From assembly GCA_022508565.1 (NCBI GenBank), contig JAFLUY010000001.1, positions 62,001 to 126,000 of the forward strand: 64,000 nt of DNA, in the 5' to 3' direction. A model generated the notes under the pieces. The model saw only the letters and a list, made by a program, of their open reading frames with translations. It made no database searches and was not told the origin of the DNA. This document shows, piece by piece, positions 16,729 to 41,061 of the stretch. How positions within the stretch are numbered: the stretch's first letter is position 1; the number at the start of each line of letters is the position of its first letter. Source of the DNA: Erysipelotrichales bacterium. Lineage in GTDB: Bacteria > Bacillota_I > Bacilli_A > RF39 > UBA660. The translations under genes were made by a program, and so were the position numbers.

Positions 16729-17775
16729 ATGAAGAAAGTTGAATTGTCAAACAAAACTTTGTTGCTAACAGGTGTAGCTGGTTTCATTGGTGCAAATCTA
16801 GCTAATAAACTTTTAAAAGATTTTAATGATCTAAAAATAATTGGTATTGATAATATGAATGACTATTATGATGTTAATATTAAGGAATATCGTTTAAATA
16901 AAATTAGTGAACATTCCAATTTTACTTTTATAAAATGTAATATTGCCGATAAGAAAACAATAGATGATATATTTGAAAAGTATAAACCCGATATAGTTGT
17001 TAATTTAGCAGCACAAGCTGGAGTTCGCTATAGTATAACTAATCCTGATGCTTATATTGAATCCAATATAATTGGCTTTTATAATATACTAGAAGCTTGT
17101 CGTAATAATCCAGTAGAACACTTAGTATATGCTTCTTCTTCATCTGTTTATGGATCAAATACTAAGATTCCTTATTCGACTGATGATCAAGTAGATAATC
17201 CAGTTTCATTATACGCAGCAACTAAGAAATCAAACGAATTATTAGCACATGCTTATTCGAAACTATATAATATTCCATCAACTGGTCTAAGATTCTTTAC
17301 TGTATATGGACCAGCAGGAAGACCAGATATGGCATATTTTGGTTTTACTAACAAATTGCTTGCTGGTGAAAAAATTCAAATATTTAATTACGGCAATTGT
17401 AAAAGAGATTTTACATATGTTGATGATATTGTAGAAGGAATAATAAGAGTAATACAAGGAGCCCCAGAACAAAAGGTAGGTGAAGATGGTCTACCAATTC
17501 CACCTTATGCAGTTTATAATATTGGAAATAGTAATCCTGAAAATCTTTTGGATTTTGTTAACATATTACAAGATGAGTTAATAAGAGCAGGAGTATTACC
17601 AGAAGATTATGATTTTGAATCACATAAAGAATTAGCACCAATGCAAGCTGGAGATGTAGCAATAACTTATGCTGATACAACACCACTTGAAAGAGATTAT
17701 GGTTTCAAACCAAATACACCATTAAGAGAAGGTTTAAGAAAATTTGCAGAATGGTATAAAGAATTTTATAAATAA
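16729..17775 (+). CDS. NAD-dependent epimerase, UDP-glucuronate 4-epimerase-like
   Basis: 'LLTGVAGFIGANLANKLL', 'AAQAGVRYSITNPDAYIESNI', 'YASSSSVYG', 'TVYGPAGRPDMAYFGFTNK'. Confidence 0.9.
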   Translation: MKKVELSNKTLLLTGVAGFIGANLANKLLKDFNDLKIIGIDNMNDYYDVNIKEYRLNKISEHSNFTFIKCNIADKKTIDDIFEKYKPDIVVNLAAQAGVRYSITNPDAYIESNIIGFYNILEACRNNPVEHLVYASSSSVYGSNTKIPYSTDDQVDNPVSLYAATKKSNELLAHAYSKLYNIPSTGLRFFTVYGPAGRPDMAYFGFTNKLLAGEKIQIFNYGNCKRDFTYVDDIVEGIIRVIQGAPEQKVGEDGLPIPPYAVYNIGNSNPENLLDFVNILQDELIRAGVLPEDYDFESHKELAPMQAGDVAITYADTTPLERDYGFKPNTPLREGLRKFAEWYKEFYK

Positions 17776-17786
17776 TGGGGGATAAT

Positions 17787-18248
17787 ATGAAGAAAAATCG
17801 TAAGCCAAGATTGTGTTTGGTATCCAGTAGTGGAGGACATTGGGAACAACTACAAAAACTACAACCATTAATAGACAAATACGAAGGATTTATGGTAACG
17901 GAAAAAACACAATTTGAAGCAAAAGCAAAATATTTTATGAAACAAACAGATTTAAAGGACAAATTAATGCCCATAAAAATGTTATGGAATGCATTCTATT
18001 CTCTAATCATTTGGATTAAAGAAAGACCAGATTTTATCATTACAACCGGAACAATGGTTGCATATCCATTTTACTTGCTGTCTGTATTATTTAAAAAAAA
18101 ATTTATATTTATAGAAACTTTTGGTAGAGCGAATATGCCAACTGTTGCTGGAAAGAAAATGGAAAAACATAGTGATTTGTTCATTGTTCAATGGGAATCA
18201 CAAAAGAAACATTATAAAAAAGCTATATATGGAGGGTGTTTATATTGA
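17787..18248 (+). CDS. PssD/Alg14-like glycosyltransferase membrane subunit
   Basis: 'CLVSSSGGHWEQLQKLQPL', 'DFIITTGTMVAYPF', 'FIVQWESQKKHYKKAIYGGCLY'. Confidence 0.88.
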   Translation: MKKNRKPRLCLVSSSGGHWEQLQKLQPLIDKYEGFMVTEKTQFEAKAKYFMKQTDLKDKLMPIKMLWNAFYSLIIWIKERPDFIITTGTMVAYPFYLLSVLFKKKFIFIETFGRANMPTVAGKKMEKHSDLFIVQWESQKKHYKKAIYGGCLY

Positions 18249-18736
18249 TATTTGTTACAGTAGGATCAAGAAATTATCCTTTTAATAGATTATTTATAGA
18301 ATTAGATAAATTATGTGAAGAAGGCGTCATCAAAGATGAAATATTTGCTCAAATAGGAACTTCAACATATAAACCTAAACATTATAAATATAAAGATTTT
18401 ATATCTCAAGAAGAATTTGTTGATTATATAGAAAAATCCAAATATGTAATAAGTCATGGTGCTTCAGGATCAATTATGAAGGCACTTAATGCTGATAAAA
18501 AAGTAATAGCAGTAACAAGATTGGAAAAATATGGTGAGCATATAAATGATCATCAAATACAAAACAATGAGGCTTTTGGTTCCAATAGTTATGTTTTACC
18601 AGTGTACGAGATGGATGAATTAAAAGACGCAATTATTAAAATTCAAACTGGTAAAGATAATCTAAAAAAATGGGAAAATAAAGATCCAATGGCAATTGTT
18701 AATATGATAGATAACTTTATACAAGATAATTGGTAG
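18245..18736 (+). CDS. PssE/Alg13-like glycosyltransferase catalytic subunit
   Basis: 'IFVTVGSRNYPFNRLFIELDKL', 'YVISHGASGSIMKAL', 'RLEKYGEHINDHQ'; likely TTG start at 18245 downstream of SD GGAGGG. Confidence 0.87.
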   Translation: MIFVTVGSRNYPFNRLFIELDKLCEEGVIKDEIFAQIGTSTYKPKHYKYKDFISQEEFVDYIEKSKYVISHGASGSIMKALNADKKVIAVTRLEKYGEHINDHQIQNNEAFGSNSYVLPVYEMDELKDAIIKIQTGKDNLKKWENKDPMAIVNMIDNFIQDNW

Positions 18737-32030: not shown

Positions 32031-32180
32031 TTTTAAAAAGTAATTCTTAAATTTCTCGTGTATATATATAAGTGGAGATGAAAATAATTAAGAAAATTAG
32101 AAACAATAACTGTGATTTTCTTTTGACAAATATGAAATTTTATAATAAACTAATTGAGTGCGAAAAAGGGGAGAAACCGG

Positions 32181-33257
32181 ATGAAAAAGAAAATAAGTAA
32201 AAAATTTCTTACTATGGTCTTAATTAGTTTATTAAACTCATCGATATATGGATGTGGACAAAAAGAAAGCCAAGAAACAGAAAATATAAATAAAGTTATA
32301 GAAGAAACTATTGAAGATAATGTTATTAATTTATCATCAAACATTGGTGATGTTGTTGAAAACAATATTACTGAATCTAAAGAGGTAATAGAAGAAGAAA
32401 TAGAAGAAGTAGAAGAAGAGAAAACATCTATTGTAAGTGTGCCAATAGTAATAGCTAATGAAAAAACAGAAATACTAGATGGTTTCGATGGTAATAAATT
32501 AGGTTATTTACCTGATGGTAAATCACTTGAGTTATTAGGTGAATATAGTGATGAAGGTTATTATCAAGTAAAATACTATGATAATATAGCTTATGTTAAT
32601 CAAAATGATGTAACAATAGCACATACATATGATATTAAAGGAGATATTAAAAAAGTATTATATGCAACTGAGGATACTTCTTTAATTATTCCTGAATATT
32701 TAAGTGCATCAGGTGAAGACGAAGAGGTACCAATAAATAAACTTGAATGTTTTGAAGTTTATAAAGAAATAGAAGACTACTATTTAGTACAAACAGCTGA
32801 CTATATCGGTTATATAGAAAAAAATAATGTAGAGGAATTGACCGGAACATTTATTGTTGTTGATATAAGTGATCAAAGATTAATACTATATAAAGATAAT
32901 GGAGTATATAAGATGTATCCAGTTGTTACTGGATTACCAACTAAAGATAGAGCGACATCACAAGGTCTATTTGAAATATATAACATTACATATAATAGAG
33001 ATTTAATTGGTCAAAATGATAGCTATCATTATTGGATTGATATAATGATGAAATTCCACGGTAATGAAGGATTCCATAATGCAAACTACCGTACAAATGA
33101 AAACGGAAAAAGTTATGGTTCAAGACATACATACGATTTTGGTGGAGATACATACACATATAATGGGTCTCATGGTTGTGTTAACATGATATATGAGGAT
33201 GTTATGGAATTATCTGAATATGTAGGTAATGGTACTGCAGTTTTAATTAAACAATAG
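32181..33257 (+). CDS. secreted/lipoprotein L,D-transpeptidase (YkuD) with SH3-like region
   Basis: Signal peptide with Cys near 'SSIYGC', 'FIVVDISDQRLILYKDNGVYKMYPVVTG', catalytic 'YNGSHGCVNMIYEDVMEL'; SD GGGGAG upstream of ATG 32181. Confidence 0.88.
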   Translation: MKKKISKKFLTMVLISLLNSSIYGCGQKESQETENINKVIEETIEDNVINLSSNIGDVVENNITESKEVIEEEIEEVEEEKTSIVSVPIVIANEKTEILDGFDGNKLGYLPDGKSLELLGEYSDEGYYQVKYYDNIAYVNQNDVTIAHTYDIKGDIKKVLYATEDTSLIIPEYLSASGEDEEVPINKLECFEVYKEIEDYYLVQTADYIGYIEKNNVEELTGTFIVVDISDQRLILYKDNGVYKMYPVVTGLPTKDRATSQGLFEIYNITYNRDLIGQNDSYHYWIDIMMKFHGNEGFHNANYRTNENGKSYGSRHTYDFGGDTYTYNGSHGCVNMIYEDVMELSEYVGNGTAVLIKQ

Positions 33258-33324: not shown

Positions 33325-34785
33325 ATGAGATTAAAAAGATCCATTAGAGTAATATTAATATTATTATTTTTAGTAGTAAGCATTATAGCAGCTAAATCAA
33401 TTTATGATTTGAGTGTCTTACCAATGAAATATTTTGTAAGAGTTTGTGAAGGCATATTTGTAATAAACTTCGTAGCAGCTTTTTGTTTATTTATTAATAA
33501 AAGAGGATTTGTTAAAGGATTTAGTTTTATTTTATATCTTTTATTAAATATATTTTGTGTTGCTGCCATTTATTATGGTTCAACAACAAATAAGTTTTTA
33601 AATAATGCATTTGATAATGCTGAAAGTGAATATAAAACAAAATTCTTGCTTTTAAGTAAGAACGACTATGAATTAAATGATTTAAAAGAAAAAGACATTG
33701 CATATTATACTGATTTACAATATAAAGAAAAAGCATTTGCAGAACTTGCAAAGAAAGATATTAAGACATTCTTAGAATATCCGGACATTAATACAACTTT
33801 AGAACAAGATGTATCATTAATTGATAATGGAATGTATATTTATTTAAAAGAAGACCAAAGCGAAATAAAAATTGATGAATATAATATTATTTATGAATTT
33901 GAAGTTGGTATCGAGCTTTCAAATGAAGCAATTGGTGAAGAAGAATTAGAAGAAGAGGAAAAAATTGAATATCAACAATTAACTCCTGGAGAATATTACA
34001 ATATTTTCTTAGGTGGTTATGACTTTACAAATACATTTATGGATTTCAATATGTTAGTGTCTATTAATAAGACTAATAATGAAATACTTATAACTACAAT
34101 TCCAAGAGATTTTTATATAACTGATGCTAAAGTAGGTAAAAGAGATAAATTAAGTGATATGGGTGCAAGAGGTATTGAAACTAATATGGCATCTGTAGCT
34201 AAATTATTTGGAGTAAAGATAGATTATTACATTAAAGTTAATACAAAGAGCTTAGTTGCCTTAGTTGATGCAGTAGGTGGTATTACTTATTGCTCTGATC
34301 AAGAATATACAACAAGCCATGCCATGATCTTAGATACATACAACGATAGCCTTGGTCAAAAGTTACATGTAAAAAAAGGATGCCAATATTTGAATGGTAT
34401 TCAAACATTAACAGTAGCAAGAGAAAGACTAGCATTTAAAACTGGTGATAATCAAAGACAAAAGAACTGTGCTAAAATAATGCAAGCTATTTTAAGTAAA
34501 ATGAAAACACCTGGTATGGCTGTTAAATATCCATCAGTATTAGAAGCTGTTAGTGGCTTCTATACAACAACTATTCCAAAAGAATTAATTACATCAAGTA
34601 TTCAAGATTTACTTGAGAATCCTAATTGGAATATCAAGACTCAATCAGTCACTGGTTATGGTGGACAAGATTATATCTTCTTTGGTTCAACTAAAGATTA
34701 TGTAATGTATCCACATATGAATACAGTTAATGCTGCTAAGAGAAAAATTCAAGGAATGAAGTATAAAAAATTAAGTGAATTATAA
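33325..34785 (+). CDS. LytR-CpsA-Psr (LCP) family cell wall glycopolymer ligase
   Basis: TM N-terminus; 'NMLVSINKTNNEILITTIPRDFYI', 'KVNTKSLVALVDAVGGITY', 'QYLNGIQTLTVARERLAFKTGDNQRQKNC'. Confidence 0.93.
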   Translation: MRLKRSIRVILILLFLVVSIIAAKSIYDLSVLPMKYFVRVCEGIFVINFVAAFCLFINKRGFVKGFSFILYLLLNIFCVAAIYYGSTTNKFLNNAFDNAESEYKTKFLLLSKNDYELNDLKEKDIAYYTDLQYKEKAFAELAKKDIKTFLEYPDINTTLEQDVSLIDNGMYIYLKEDQSEIKIDEYNIIYEFEVGIELSNEAIGEEELEEEEKIEYQQLTPGEYYNIFLGGYDFTNTFMDFNMLVSINKTNNEILITTIPRDFYITDAKVGKRDKLSDMGARGIETNMASVAKLFGVKIDYYIKVNTKSLVALVDAVGGITYCSDQEYTTSHAMILDTYNDSLGQKLHVKKGCQYLNGIQTLTVARERLAFKTGDNQRQKNCAKIMQAILSKMKTPGMAVKYPSVLEAVSGFYTTTIPKELITSSIQDLLENPNWNIKTQSVTGYGGQDYIFFGSTKDYVMYPHMNTVNAAKRKIQGMKYKKLSEL

Positions 34786-34790
34786 TATAA

Positions 34791-34817
34791 ATCGCACTTG
34801 CTGAAAGTGCGATTTTA
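34791..34817 (+). terminator. Rho-independent terminator after LCP gene
   Basis: ATCGCACTT-GCTGA-AAGTGCGAT-TTT. Confidence 0.8.
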
Positions 34818-34826
34818 TGTTATTAT
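34798..34826 (+). promoter_or_regulatory. candidate promoter for the antitoxin-like RNA
   Basis: TTGCTG-N17-TATTAT; partly overlaps the LCP terminator. Confidence 0.45.
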
Positions 34827-34832
34827 GTATGT

Positions 34833-34950
34833 AGATGAAGGAAACTTCATAAAATAAAAAAAGAGGGAAGCCTTAACACTCCAGAGTTGAGTGCTTACCT
34901 AATATATTGGTTTGCGCTTAATCTATGGATTGAGCGCTTGATTCTTTTTA
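34833..34950 (+). ncRNA. candidate antisense antitoxin RNA
   Basis: Predicted between TTGCTG-N17-TATTAT promoter and the terminator hairpin GCGCTTAATC-TATG-GATTGAGCGC + TTGATTCTTTTT; complementary to the 3' part of the toxin-like mRNA. Confidence 0.5.
34914..34950 (+). terminator. Rho-independent terminator of the antitoxin-like RNA
   Basis: 10-bp stem (one G-U) with TATG loop, followed by T-rich tract. Confidence 0.75.
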
Positions 34951-34963
34951 TAATTCATTATCA

Positions 34964-35035
34964 TTAATATGATTGAAAAATAAGCAGAATGATGATAATG
35001 ATTAAAGCTAAGATTAGAAAATCTATCTTTCTCAT
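34964..35035 (-). CDS. candidate type I toxin peptide, 23 aa, MRKIDFLILALIIIIILLIFQSY
   Basis: Unlisted small ORF; perfect SD (GGAGG, 7 nt spacing), single TM helix, SD lies in the hairpin ACCTCC-GAAA-GGAGGT. Confidence 0.6.
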   Translation of the reverse strand: MRKIDFLILALIIIIILLIFQSY

Positions 35036-35041
35036 TTCATC

Positions 35042-35057
35042 ACCTCCTTTCGGAGGT
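35042..35057 (-). promoter_or_regulatory. SD-sequestering stem-loop of toxin-like mRNA
   Basis: Minus strand: ACCTCC-GAAA-GGAGGT, 6 bp perfect stem with GNRA loop, contains the SD of the 23-aa ORF. Confidence 0.7.
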
Positions 35058-35089
35058 AAGCAGCTCAACAGTTAGGTTTCCCTAAATAC

Positions 35090-35119
35090 ATTATAGATGA
35101 GAATAATTGTTGAAAACAA
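35090..35119 (-). promoter_or_regulatory. candidate promoter for toxin-like mRNA
   Basis: Minus strand TTGTTT-N18-TATAAT. Confidence 0.5.
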
Positions 35120-35246
35120 TATAATTCAAACAATTTATTAAATTAGTTTCTAAATCTCATACAGATTTTTAATAACCGTTATTTTCTTTGTATAGGTGAT
35201 GTCAACGCATCAAATATTTTATAAGAAAGTAAGGGATAATAGTTTT

Positions 35247-35275
35247 AGAATAGGTTTCCTATTCTTTTATTTTAT
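35247..35275 (+). terminator. orphan Rho-independent terminator
   Basis: AGAATAGG-TTT-CCTATTCT-TTTATTTT, no + strand gene between LCP and here. Confidence 0.65.
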
Positions 35276-35311
35276 CTTAATTTATTATATAATGTTGATG
35301 GGTGATAACAT

Positions 35312-36355
35312 ATGAAAAAACTAGCTTTATTTCAAGTGGATTTAAATATTGGTGGTATTCAAAAATCATGTGTTAATTTTCTTAATAATATAGATCTTAA
35401 TAAGTATGAAGTAGATTTATATTTAGTAGAAAAAGATAATGCCTATATTAATGATTTAAATAAATACATTAATATTAAATATATTAAGAAATTGCCATAT
35501 ATAACTAAGTTAATTCCAATATCTATTTTAAAGTTATTTTATAACCCTAAAATAGATAAAACTTATGATATCGCAATTGATTTTAATTCATATTCAAATG
35601 AAACAGCTGTTTCTACTAAAAAGGTTAATGCAAATAAAAGAATGATTTGGATTCATAATGATGTTGAAGTAAAGATAAAAGAAGAAATACTATATCGTAT
35701 TCTTCATTTAGTCTTTAAAAGTAAATATAAATACTTTGATTCATTTGTTGGAGTATCAGATGGAGCCTTAAAGTCTTTTATTAAAGTAAATAAGATAAAG
35801 AATAAAGAATGCTTAGTTATACCTAATTTAGTTGATACAAAAGAAATAAAAGAAAAATTAAAAGAAGAGACAGAAATTGATGTTGATAATTCAAAAATTA
35901 ATATATGTTCAACAGGAAGAATAGTTCATCAAAAAGGTTTTGATTTACTTGTTCAAGAAATAAATAAAAATAAAGATATTTTAACAAATCATCATTTTTA
36001 CTTTATTGGTGGTGGATCTGATGAAGCAAAGATTAAGGATTTAGTAAAAGACAATAATTTAGAAGATTTAATAACCATCACAGGTTATCTAAAGAATCCT
36101 TATCCTTTAATGAATAAAATGGATGCCTTCATCTTACTTAGCAGATATGAAGGACAAGGTATGGTATTCTTAGAGGCGAAAGCACTTGACTTAGATGTTA
36201 TCATGCCAAAGCATTTAGAAAAGTATGTTGATGGGGAAATCATTGGTACAGATGATTTAAGAAAATCTTTACTAAATATAAATAAAAGTAATCATAAATT
36301 TAATGATTTAACAGATTATAATAAAAGAATAATTAATAAGATAAATAGTTTATAG
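35312..36355 (+). CDS. glycosyltransferase family 4
   Basis: 'LFQVDLNIGGIQKSCVNFLNNID', 'CSTGRIVHQKGFDLLVQ', 'LSRYEGQGMVFLEAKAL'. Confidence 0.9.
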   Translation: MKKLALFQVDLNIGGIQKSCVNFLNNIDLNKYEVDLYLVEKDNAYINDLNKYINIKYIKKLPYITKLIPISILKLFYNPKIDKTYDIAIDFNSYSNETAVSTKKVNANKRMIWIHNDVEVKIKEEILYRILHLVFKSKYKYFDSFVGVSDGALKSFIKVNKIKNKECLVIPNLVDTKEIKEKLKEETEIDVDNSKINICSTGRIVHQKGFDLLVQEINKNKDILTNHHFYFIGGGSDEAKIKDLVKDNNLEDLITITGYLKNPYPLMNKMDAFILLSRYEGQGMVFLEAKALDLDVIMPKHLEKYVDGEIIGTDDLRKSLLNINKSNHKFNDLTDYNKRIINKINSL

Positions 36356-36363
36356 GAGAAAAT

Positions 36364-36843
36364 ATGAAAAGACAAAAGAAAGTACTATTTATATCTAGTA
36401 CCGGTGGTCATTTTAATGAACTTATGCGTTTAAGACCACTTTTTGCTAAATATAATAGTTATGTTGCAACTGAGAAACAAAAAAGTAATGAATACTTAAG
36501 AAGTGAATTTAAAAATAAAGTATTCTTCCTTTTGTATGGAACAAAAGATCATCCTTTTTCATATCCTTTTAAACTATTTGCGAACTCTTTTATTTCTTTA
36601 TTTTACTTTATTAAAATAAGACCAGATGTTATTGTAACAACTGGTACACATACAGCTGGACCAATATGTTGTATTGCTAAAATATTTGGTAAAAAAGTAA
36701 TTTATATTGAAACTATAGCTAATATAAATTCTAAAACTATCACTGGTCGTATTCTTTATCATATTGCTGATCAATTTTATGTTCAATGGGAATCTATGTT
36801 AAAACTTTATCCAAAAGCTATTTATAAGGGGTGGATTTACTAA
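36364..36843 (+). CDS. PssD/Alg14-like glycosyltransferase subunit
   Basis: 'VLFISSTGGHFNELMRLRPLF', 'DVIVTTGTHTAGPI', 'FYVQWESMLKLYPKAIYKGWIY'. Confidence 0.88.
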   Translation: MKRQKKVLFISSTGGHFNELMRLRPLFAKYNSYVATEKQKSNEYLRSEFKNKVFFLLYGTKDHPFSYPFKLFANSFISLFYFIKIRPDVIVTTGTHTAGPICCIAKIFGKKVIYIETIANINSKTITGRILYHIADQFYVQWESMLKLYPKAIYKGWIY

Positions 36844-38285
36844 TGATACTTGTAACACTCGGAACTCAAGATAAAAGTTTTGATAGATTATTGAATGCAA
36901 TTGATAAAGAAATTGATAATGGCAATATTAAGGATAAAGTTATAGTTCAAGCAGGTTTTACTTTTAAAACCTATAAAAGTAAGAATATGGAAATGTTTGA
37001 CTATGTCGATACTAAAACTATGAATGACTTAGTTAAAAAAAGTGATGTTATTATTTCTCATGCTGGAGCGGGTTCAATTCTTACAGCTTTAGAAAATGAT
37101 AAAAAAATAATAGTTGTTCCAAGACAAAGTAAATATGGAGAACACAATAATGACCATCAAATTGAAATAGCTGAAAAGTTTTCAAATGATGGACATGTAA
37201 TATATCTTAAGAATTTAAATAATTTAGTTGAAACTTTAAATAATATTGATTCATTTAATCCAACTAAATTAAATCATAATAATGAATTACTTAAAAATAT
37301 TGAAGAGTTTATTGATAATACAAAGAAGAAAAAGAAATTCTTGCCATTTGTTATGGTTATCTTATGGGCATGTGCCATTTTCTTCTTATCTAATATGAGT
37401 GGTATAGAATCAAATATAAAGAGCACTACATCATTAGATATCATAATAAAAGAAGTATTAACGTTTACTAATAAAATTGGCTTAACTGATAAACATCCAA
37501 CTGAAGCAAGAATAAGTGAATTTGCTGAAGACATTAATCCAATCATGCGTAAATGCGCTCATGCAACTGTTTTCTTTATTTTAGCTATCTTGATATCTAT
37601 TTTCTTAACAAGATATAATATACGCTTATCATTTGCATTTATATTAACAGTTCTTTTATCCTTCATGTATGCTTTATTTGATGAATATCATCAAACATTT
37701 GTAATTGGGCGCACTGGACAGTTAACAGACTCATTAATTGATGTAAGTGGAGCAATAATAGGCTGTTTCATAGTGCTAATAATAGTTAAAATAAAAAGAA
37801 GAAAAAAGAAAGTTAAGGATAAAAAGAAAGTTATCTTTGTTTCAAGTTTAGGTGGGCATTTAACTCAAATGCTTCAACTAAAAAGTATATTTAATGACTA
37901 TAACTATCTTTTAATCACTGAAAAGTCTAGTGTTACTGAAAACTTAAAGTCAGATTATAATGTTAAATACTATATATACTGTAATAAAAAAATATTTATT
38001 AAATATTTTATAATTAACGTTATTAATGCTTTCCATTCATTATATACTTTCTTTAAAGAAAGACCAGATGTAATTGTAACAACTGGAGCTAATACAGCAG
38101 TACCTCTTTGTTACTTAGGAAGAATATTTGGTAAAAAAGTAATATTTATTGAATCATTTGCAAAAAGAAATGGTAAAACTTTAGCTGGGACTTTATGTTA
38201 TCCAGTAGCAACAACATTTATTGTTCAGTGGGAATCAATGTTAAAGTATTACCCTAAAGCAAAATATTTTGGAGGTATCTATTAA
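36843..38285 (+). CDS. three-domain fusion: PssE/Alg13-like + VanZ-like + PssD/Alg14-like
   Basis: 'MILVTLGTQDKSFDRLLNAID...SHAGAGSILTAL' ; VanZ 'MRKCAHATVFFILA...FDEYHQTFVIGRTGQLTDSLIDVSGAIIG' ; 'VIFVSSLGGHLTQMLQLKSIF...VIVTTGANTAVPLCYLG...FIVQWESMLKYYPKAKYFGGIY'; start ATG 36843 preceded by AAGGGGTGG SD. Confidence 0.9.
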   Translation: MILVTLGTQDKSFDRLLNAIDKEIDNGNIKDKVIVQAGFTFKTYKSKNMEMFDYVDTKTMNDLVKKSDVIISHAGAGSILTALENDKKIIVVPRQSKYGEHNNDHQIEIAEKFSNDGHVIYLKNLNNLVETLNNIDSFNPTKLNHNNELLKNIEEFIDNTKKKKKFLPFVMVILWACAIFFLSNMSGIESNIKSTTSLDIIIKEVLTFTNKIGLTDKHPTEARISEFAEDINPIMRKCAHATVFFILAILISIFLTRYNIRLSFAFILTVLLSFMYALFDEYHQTFVIGRTGQLTDSLIDVSGAIIGCFIVLIIVKIKRRKKKVKDKKKVIFVSSLGGHLTQMLQLKSIFNDYNYLLITEKSSVTENLKSDYNVKYYIYCNKKIFIKYFIINVINAFHSLYTFFKERPDVIVTTGANTAVPLCYLGRIFGKKVIFIESFAKRNGKTLAGTLCYPVATTFIVQWESMLKYYPKAKYFGGIY

Positions 38286-38752
38286 TGATCTTAGTTACAC
38301 TTGGTACTCAAAACCAAAAATTTTATCGCTTACTTGATTATATAGAAAAATCGAGCATTGATGATGAGATAATAGTTCAGGCAGGCGGATCAATTAATTA
38401 TAAATCAAAAAAGATGAAATTATTTAAATTCATCAATTATGATGAAATGATCACGTTAATAAAAAAGGCAGACCTTGTTATAACTCATGGAGGAACAGGA
38501 AGTATCTTTTTACCCTTACAACATGGCAAAAAGGTAATTGCTTGTGCAAGACTCGAAAAATATAAAGAACATATAAATGATCATCAAACTGAAATAGTTT
38601 CAATATTTGCTGAAATGGGTTATTTACTTGAACTAAATGAAGAAAATAATCTTGATGATTTAATAGAACAAGCAAAGACTTTTAAACCAAAAGAATATGT
38701 AAGTAATAAAGATAATTTTATTAAATTATTACAATGTGAAATAGATGAGTAG
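38285..38752 (+). CDS. PssE/Alg13-like glycosyltransferase subunit
   Basis: 'MILVTLGTQNQKFYRLLDYIE', 'LVITHGGTGSIFLPLQHGKKVIACARLEKYKEHINDHQ'. Confidence 0.88.
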   Translation: MILVTLGTQNQKFYRLLDYIEKSSIDDEIIVQAGGSINYKSKKMKLFKFINYDEMITLIKKADLVITHGGTGSIFLPLQHGKKVIACARLEKYKEHINDHQTEIVSIFAEMGYLLELNEENNLDDLIEQAKTFKPKEYVSNKDNFIKLLQCEIDE

Positions 38753-40752: not shown

Positions 40753-40812
40753 TATAAAACAAAAGTAAAATAAATTTCTTCCTTGTATATAAAGGGTGAA
40801 GGGAGGAAGCAA

Positions 40813-41061
40813 ATGGAATTAGATACAGTAACAGAAGGATATAAGTATCTTGAATGGATGAATGAAGAAACTGACAAAAAGTTTAAGGAAAATTCTATTA
40901 GAGAAGAGGCCTTTGATAAAGGAATAGAAAAAGGTATTAAAGAAGGTCAAAATAAAATAATTATTTCTATGATTGAGACTGGAATGTCTATTGAAGAAAT
41001 AGACAAAATAACGCATCTTGGAATAGATAAAATAAAAAATATTATTTCAAATAATAACTAG
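40813..41061 (+). CDS. small protein resembling the C-terminal tail of Rpn/PD-(D/E)XK transposase-like nucleases
   Basis: 'EEAFDKGIEKGIKEGQNKIIISMIETGMSIEEIDKITHLGIDKI' is the typical Rpn-family tail; strong SD AGGGAGGA before ATG 40813. Confidence 0.55.
   Translation: MELDTVTEGYKYLEWMNEETDKKFKENSIREEAFDKGIEKGIKEGQNKIIISMIETGMSIEEIDKITHLGIDKIKNIISNNN

Follow-up and report, generated by a model that had tools for sequence, protein, structure and literature searches.

A three-domain fusion of PssE/Alg13-like, VanZ and PssD/Alg14-like sequences in an Erysipelotrichales bacterium

The window, a 64,000-nucleotide stretch of DNA from an uncultured gut-type bacterium of the Erysipelotrichales, carries on its forward strand genes for a YkuD L,D-transpeptidase-like protein with SH3 (32154..33257; PF03734, 9.9e-18), a LytR-CpsA-Psr (LCP) protein (33325..34785; PF03816, 2.1e-29) and a GT4 glycosyltransferase (35312..36355; Glycos_transf_1, 4.6e-17). 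Directly downstream of the GT4 gene is D1, a separate PssD/Alg14-like subunit (36364..36843; Alg14, 1.2e-18), followed by an uninterrupted frame of 480 amino acids with its ATG at 36843 and its stop at 38285, and then by E2, a separate PssE/Alg13-like subunit (38285..38752). The D1 stop touches the start of the long frame, and the stop of the latter touches the E2 start, as in a translationally coupled operon; an in-frame GTG at 36831, upstream of the ATG, overlaps D1. The gene for HtpG forms the right flank after E2. Between the LCP and GT4 genes (34786-35311), the window is without long open reading frames; in a second species of the same genus (genome G008) this position is occupied by a 585-amino-acid BspA-like repeat protein (L154:12701-14458). 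A third PssD-PssE pair of the genome is at 17775-18736, and its D sequence is very divergent from all other D sequences fetched. A 92-amino-acid frame at 40783-41061 resembles the tail of an Rpn-type transposase-like nuclease and is presumably a remnant.

The long frame is a real fusion of PssE/Alg13-like, VanZ and PssD/Alg14-like domains in one chain. Pfam finds Glyco_tran_28_C at residues 1-148 (E 1.6e-17), VanZ PF04892 at residues 170-314 (E 2.9e-17; 63.9 bits with a cut-off of 30.1) and Alg14 at residues 391-477 (E 1.7e-15). NCBIfam profiles with curated cut-offs agree. The first domain, E1 (residues 1-159; 36843..37319), scores 136.5 bits with PssE (cut-off 120), the VanZ domain (residues 165-323; 37335..37811) 81.1 bits with NF037970 (cut-off 20), and the last domain, D2 (residues 327-480 plus stop; 37821..38285), 165.3 bits with PssD (cut-off 110). 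D2 is 75-86% identical to the unfused D sequences of loci L018-L020. The flanking subunits belong to the same families, D1 with 172.3 bits for PssD and E2 with 128.7 bits for PssE. Scores of 34.1 bits with the murG equivalog (250) and 179.4 bits with the WelK glucuronosyltransferase equivalog (400) place these sequences outside both families. The original prediction of one frame with these three domains is thus borne out by both profile collections, all above cut-off, and its domain positions agree with theirs to about 20 bases.

The VanZ domain is complete. It retains the two motifs of VanZ-2, RKxxH as RKCAH (residues 236-240; 37548..37562) and DxxxD as DSLID (residues 296-300; 37728..37742), as well as DEYHQ (37680-37694), which is likewise conserved. 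The AlphaFold2 model of the fusion protein (26-sequence alignment; mean pLDDT 86.3, pTM 0.67) shows two Rossmann halves separated by four long helices (167-186, 221-257, 262-288 and 294-323). As the number of VanZ helices is even, E1 and D2 should be on the same side of the membrane. By the positive-inside rule, the lysine-rich flanks of the helices (KKKKK, KIKRRKKKVKDKKK) suggest that this side is presumably the cytosol. In a Foldseek comparison with the PDB, the best 50 matches are single GT-B domains only, of about 145 columns, with MurG among them and no VanZ match; a sequence search gave yeast ALG13 and one weak glycosyltransferase match.

The fusion is also found in the second species, on contig CATNCE010000002.1 (locus L017, genome G008). 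The arrangement GT4-D1-[E1-VanZ-D2...] is the same, and the wider gene order YkuD-LCP-...-GT4-D1-fusion is common to both genomes. The two proteins are 65% identical overall, E1 being 73%, VanZ 55% and the readable N-terminal part of D2 78% identical; a run of N begins 38 residues into D2 and hides most of PssD. The VanZ-2 motifs are present as RKLAH and DALID. The earlier view of a complete VanZ domain with an Alg13-like domain attached on one side and an Alg14-like domain on the other is supported. Both the E1/VanZ and the VanZ/D2 junctions are in frame in the two species, with differing nucleotides. Could an assembly or sequencing error have joined separate genes? Both junctions in the window are A-rich, which could conceal an indel, and the genes are separate in most relatives. 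Yet the second genome is of another species and independently assembled, and it has the same junctions in different DNA, so a misassembly in a single genome does not explain the fusion, and an artefact is very improbable.

The coding sequence itself ties D2 to the fusion. In both species, there is no ATG, GTG or TTG from VanZ to the GGH motif of D2, and a complete D2 can therefore not be produced separately. The whole genome has only three Alg14 domains, and D2 is thus without a spare copy. In both species the first VanZ helix has a TTG at its beginning, where separate initiation of VanZ is possible by codons; no strong Shine-Dalgarno match is seen at this TTG in either the window or L017. A Shine-Dalgarno-like sequence, TTAAGGAT, is located directly 5′ of D2 at 37810-37822 and is possibly a relic of an earlier independent start.

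Whole-protein searches in genomes of the family, order and class (about 1,000 genome searches in overlapping draws) yielded no E-VanZ-D fusions beyond G000 and G008, so that the known cases come from two species, both of one genus. Partial matches, such as one to residues 241-480 in G344, proved to be something else, in this case an O-antigen-ligase/PssD fusion.

Separate trees of about 95 D and about 95 E domains show which halves belong together. D1 clusters with the D sequences of L017 and of L021, an unfused pair (SH-aLRT 98), and E1 clusters with the E sequences of the same two loci (SH-aLRT 97). D2, in turn, is placed with the D sequences of the unfused pairs of L018, L019, L020 and L097 (SH-aLRT 99), and E2 with the E sequences of these pairs (SH-aLRT 98). 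D1 with E1 and D2 with E2 thus group by descent, and each half is adjoined by its matching partner half. The unfused loci have corresponding surroundings. L021 displays GT4-D-E followed by GtrA as the next gene, and GT4 is upstream of D1 in L017 also; L019, in genome G001 of the same genus as the window, has an unfused D-E pair and then HtpG, exactly the right flank of the window. As the two trees agree, it is well supported by phylogeny that the fused halves come from two separate bipartite glycosyltransferases, VanZ linking the end of one D-E pair to the start of another.

These results change the earlier picture. The fused halves had been taken as partners, and their order as the reverse of the usual one, with Alg13 first. 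The trees instead give E1 to the upstream D1 and D2 to the downstream E2, with SH-aLRT values of 97-99. As D1 and E2 flank the frame, the locus reads D1 / E1-VanZ-D2 / E2, which is the usual order D-E, D-E; the trees and the flanking genes together rule out a reversed Alg13-Alg14 pair. A related proposal is that E1 and D2 together form a single MurG-like active site, within one chain or between the two chains of a dimer, D1 and E2 being accessory or paired separately. Both halves of a GT-B fold are indeed present in one chain and tethered on the same membrane side, but such pairing is unlikely because in the trees E1 and D2 fall into separate co-inherited pairs, each with its true partner in the neighbouring gene.

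The relatives of the VanZ domain were sought in 291 genomes of the family, where a group of closer VanZ sequences (E about 1e-28 or better) stands apart from the general VanZ paralogues. Several standalone members of the closer group adjoin LCP and/or UDP-glucose dehydrogenase (Ugd) genes at L126, L130, L132, L141, L155 and L156. The gene order is Ugd-VanZ-LCP in L130 and L132, LCP-VanZ-YkuD-Ugd in L155 (genome G001) and LCP-VanZ in L156 (genome G005); Ugd is near the standalone VanZ gene in L141 and L126. The fused VanZ groups with L156 and the L155 set (94/95). A VanZ gene from an LCP locus, we infer, was enclosed by two D-E pairs and then merged with both.

The following explanation, to which as a whole we assign a probability of roughly 0.55, best accommodates these observations. 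The locus would encode two GT28-type bipartite glycosyltransferases, D1/E1 and D2/E2, both divided in the manner of Alg14/Alg13. E1-VanZ-D2 would hold one half of each enzyme, one at either cytosolic end of its four-helix VanZ domain, and the separate D1 may dock on E1 and the separate E2 on D2, such that two active sites are yoked to one membrane protein. Both enzymes would add sugars to a polyprenyl-diphosphate-linked surface glycan, probably in consecutive steps. VanZ would at minimum anchor both enzymes and, in view of its retained lipocone motifs and its membership of the LCP/Ugd-linked group, probably also works at the outer face on the lipid-linked glycan that they extend. More tentatively, VanZ might be an active lipocone enzyme that works after flipping on the glycan built by the yoked glycosyltransferases and so links assembly in the cytosol with release, transfer or carrier recycling outside the cell.

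Fusions of PssD and PssE with other neighbours bear on this explanation. Among the loci fetched by general searches, a large partner is fused to the N-terminal side of 8 of 92 distinct PssD domains and to the C-terminal side of 6 of 94 distinct PssE domains. PssD is found behind an O-antigen-ligase/Wzy-like protein in L088 (3035-4864), L101 (1498-3258, reverse strand), L103 (379-2034) and L115 (217-2055), further in L162, L171 (1498-3519, reverse strand) and L173 (1085-2878), and by similarity in L174; these fusions are spread over several genera of the same family. GT4-PssD proteins, two glycosyltransferases in one chain, are encoded in L067 (4819-6471), L074 (4873-6480), L084 (4867-6474) and L090 (4873-6474). 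PssE carries a C-terminal GtrA four-helix module in L056 (6459-7340), L083 (3386-4285), L091 (6480-7403), L092 (6417-7358) and L179 (1066-1989, reverse strand), and a GtrA-related module below the Pfam threshold in L057; GtrA is the next separate gene in L018, L021, L022 and L097. Other fusions are PssE-DHHW (L164:2-1510, reverse strand), PssE-DUF6056 (L171:1-1485, reverse strand) and an O-antigen ligase joined to GT2 (L020:3554-5989).

Such counts are what would be expected if packed polysaccharide genes often lose the stop between them. VanZ would then be only an anchor or passenger and the fusion harmless, an account that the O-antigen-ligase/Wzy-like, GT4, GtrA and VanZ partners and the O-antigen-ligase/GT2 protein of L020 all favour. 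It is a serious alternative, if the less probable one; against it, a fusion with two junctions has outlasted divergence to 55-78% identity with its VanZ motifs intact. The partners are also repeatedly proteins of lipid-linked glycans, yet this is likewise the base rate in such operons. The original prediction held that the fusion suggests a role for VanZ in lipid-linked glycans. The polysaccharide and LCP loci of the standalone relatives favour such a role; the step from fusion to function is weaker than claimed, since PssD and PssE here fuse to many other neighbours. The fusion is therefore moderate, not strong, evidence on VanZ function. It mainly shows that VanZ was a neighbour in a polysaccharide operon, and co-fusion adds little beyond co-operon membership where fusions of neighbouring polysaccharide genes are common in the lineage. 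As one of several fusion partners, VanZ is supported in a role in lipid-linked glycan assembly, without this showing what it does.

VanZ proteins are very widespread, and we know of no proven reaction for them. A protein that covalently binds VanZ to two glycosyltransferase halves therefore offers a candidate pathway, and E1-VanZ-D2 is a construct for a direct test of VanZ in lipid-linked glycan metabolism. The fusion hints that VanZ proteins act close to the enzymes by which lipid-carried surface sugars are made. In an experimental study, VanZ reduces lipoglycopeptide binding to cells (PMC7146870). PMC12419801 unites VanZ with Wnt, PTDSS and TelC in the Lipocone superfamily and defines VanZ-2 by RKxxH and DxxxD. 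It predicts an outward-facing active site and proposes, as a prediction only, that the head groups of lipid-linked glycans are cleaved or transesterified. VanZ is also described there as fused to, or encoded near, flippases and polyprenyl-phosphate sugar transferases, the association of VanZ-2 being mainly with peptidoglycan genes.

The window VanZ is similar to VanZ-2 as described in PMC12419801 in its two motifs, its four-helix core and its links to exopolysaccharide and peptidoglycan genes; the searched portions of that paper's main text do not mention VanZ-2 fused to Alg13/Alg14-type domains, nor Alg14 or MurG. No report of an E-VanZ-D architecture was found in the open-access literature. 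The locus resembles PssD/PssE (Cps14F/Cps14G, EpsE/EpsF) and Alg14/Alg13 in that a GT28 enzyme is split into membrane and nucleotide-sugar halves encoded by adjacent genes of a polysaccharide locus, but the window joins an E half and a D half of different pairs through VanZ. As in the window, both halves are in one chain in MurG and, in some organisms, in fused Alg14-Alg13, the split and fused forms of which have been reviewed (PMC4973528). The natural Alg14-Alg13 fusions consist of partners, D then E, whereas here E comes first, then VanZ and D, and E and D belong to different pairs. A further comparison is with the proteins of related Bacilli in which PssE has a C-terminal multi-helix module (PssE-GtrA) or PssD an N-terminal module (O-antigen-ligase/Wzy-like-PssD, with a membrane module, and GT4-PssD). 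Together with the VanZ fusion, they suggest that PssD/PssE are physically beside membrane proteins of polymer assembly. These are two-part proteins, none with VanZ or with an E half and a D half together. PssE joined to a membrane module and a membrane module joined to PssD each exist elsewhere, and the window protein combines the two arrangements through one VanZ domain.
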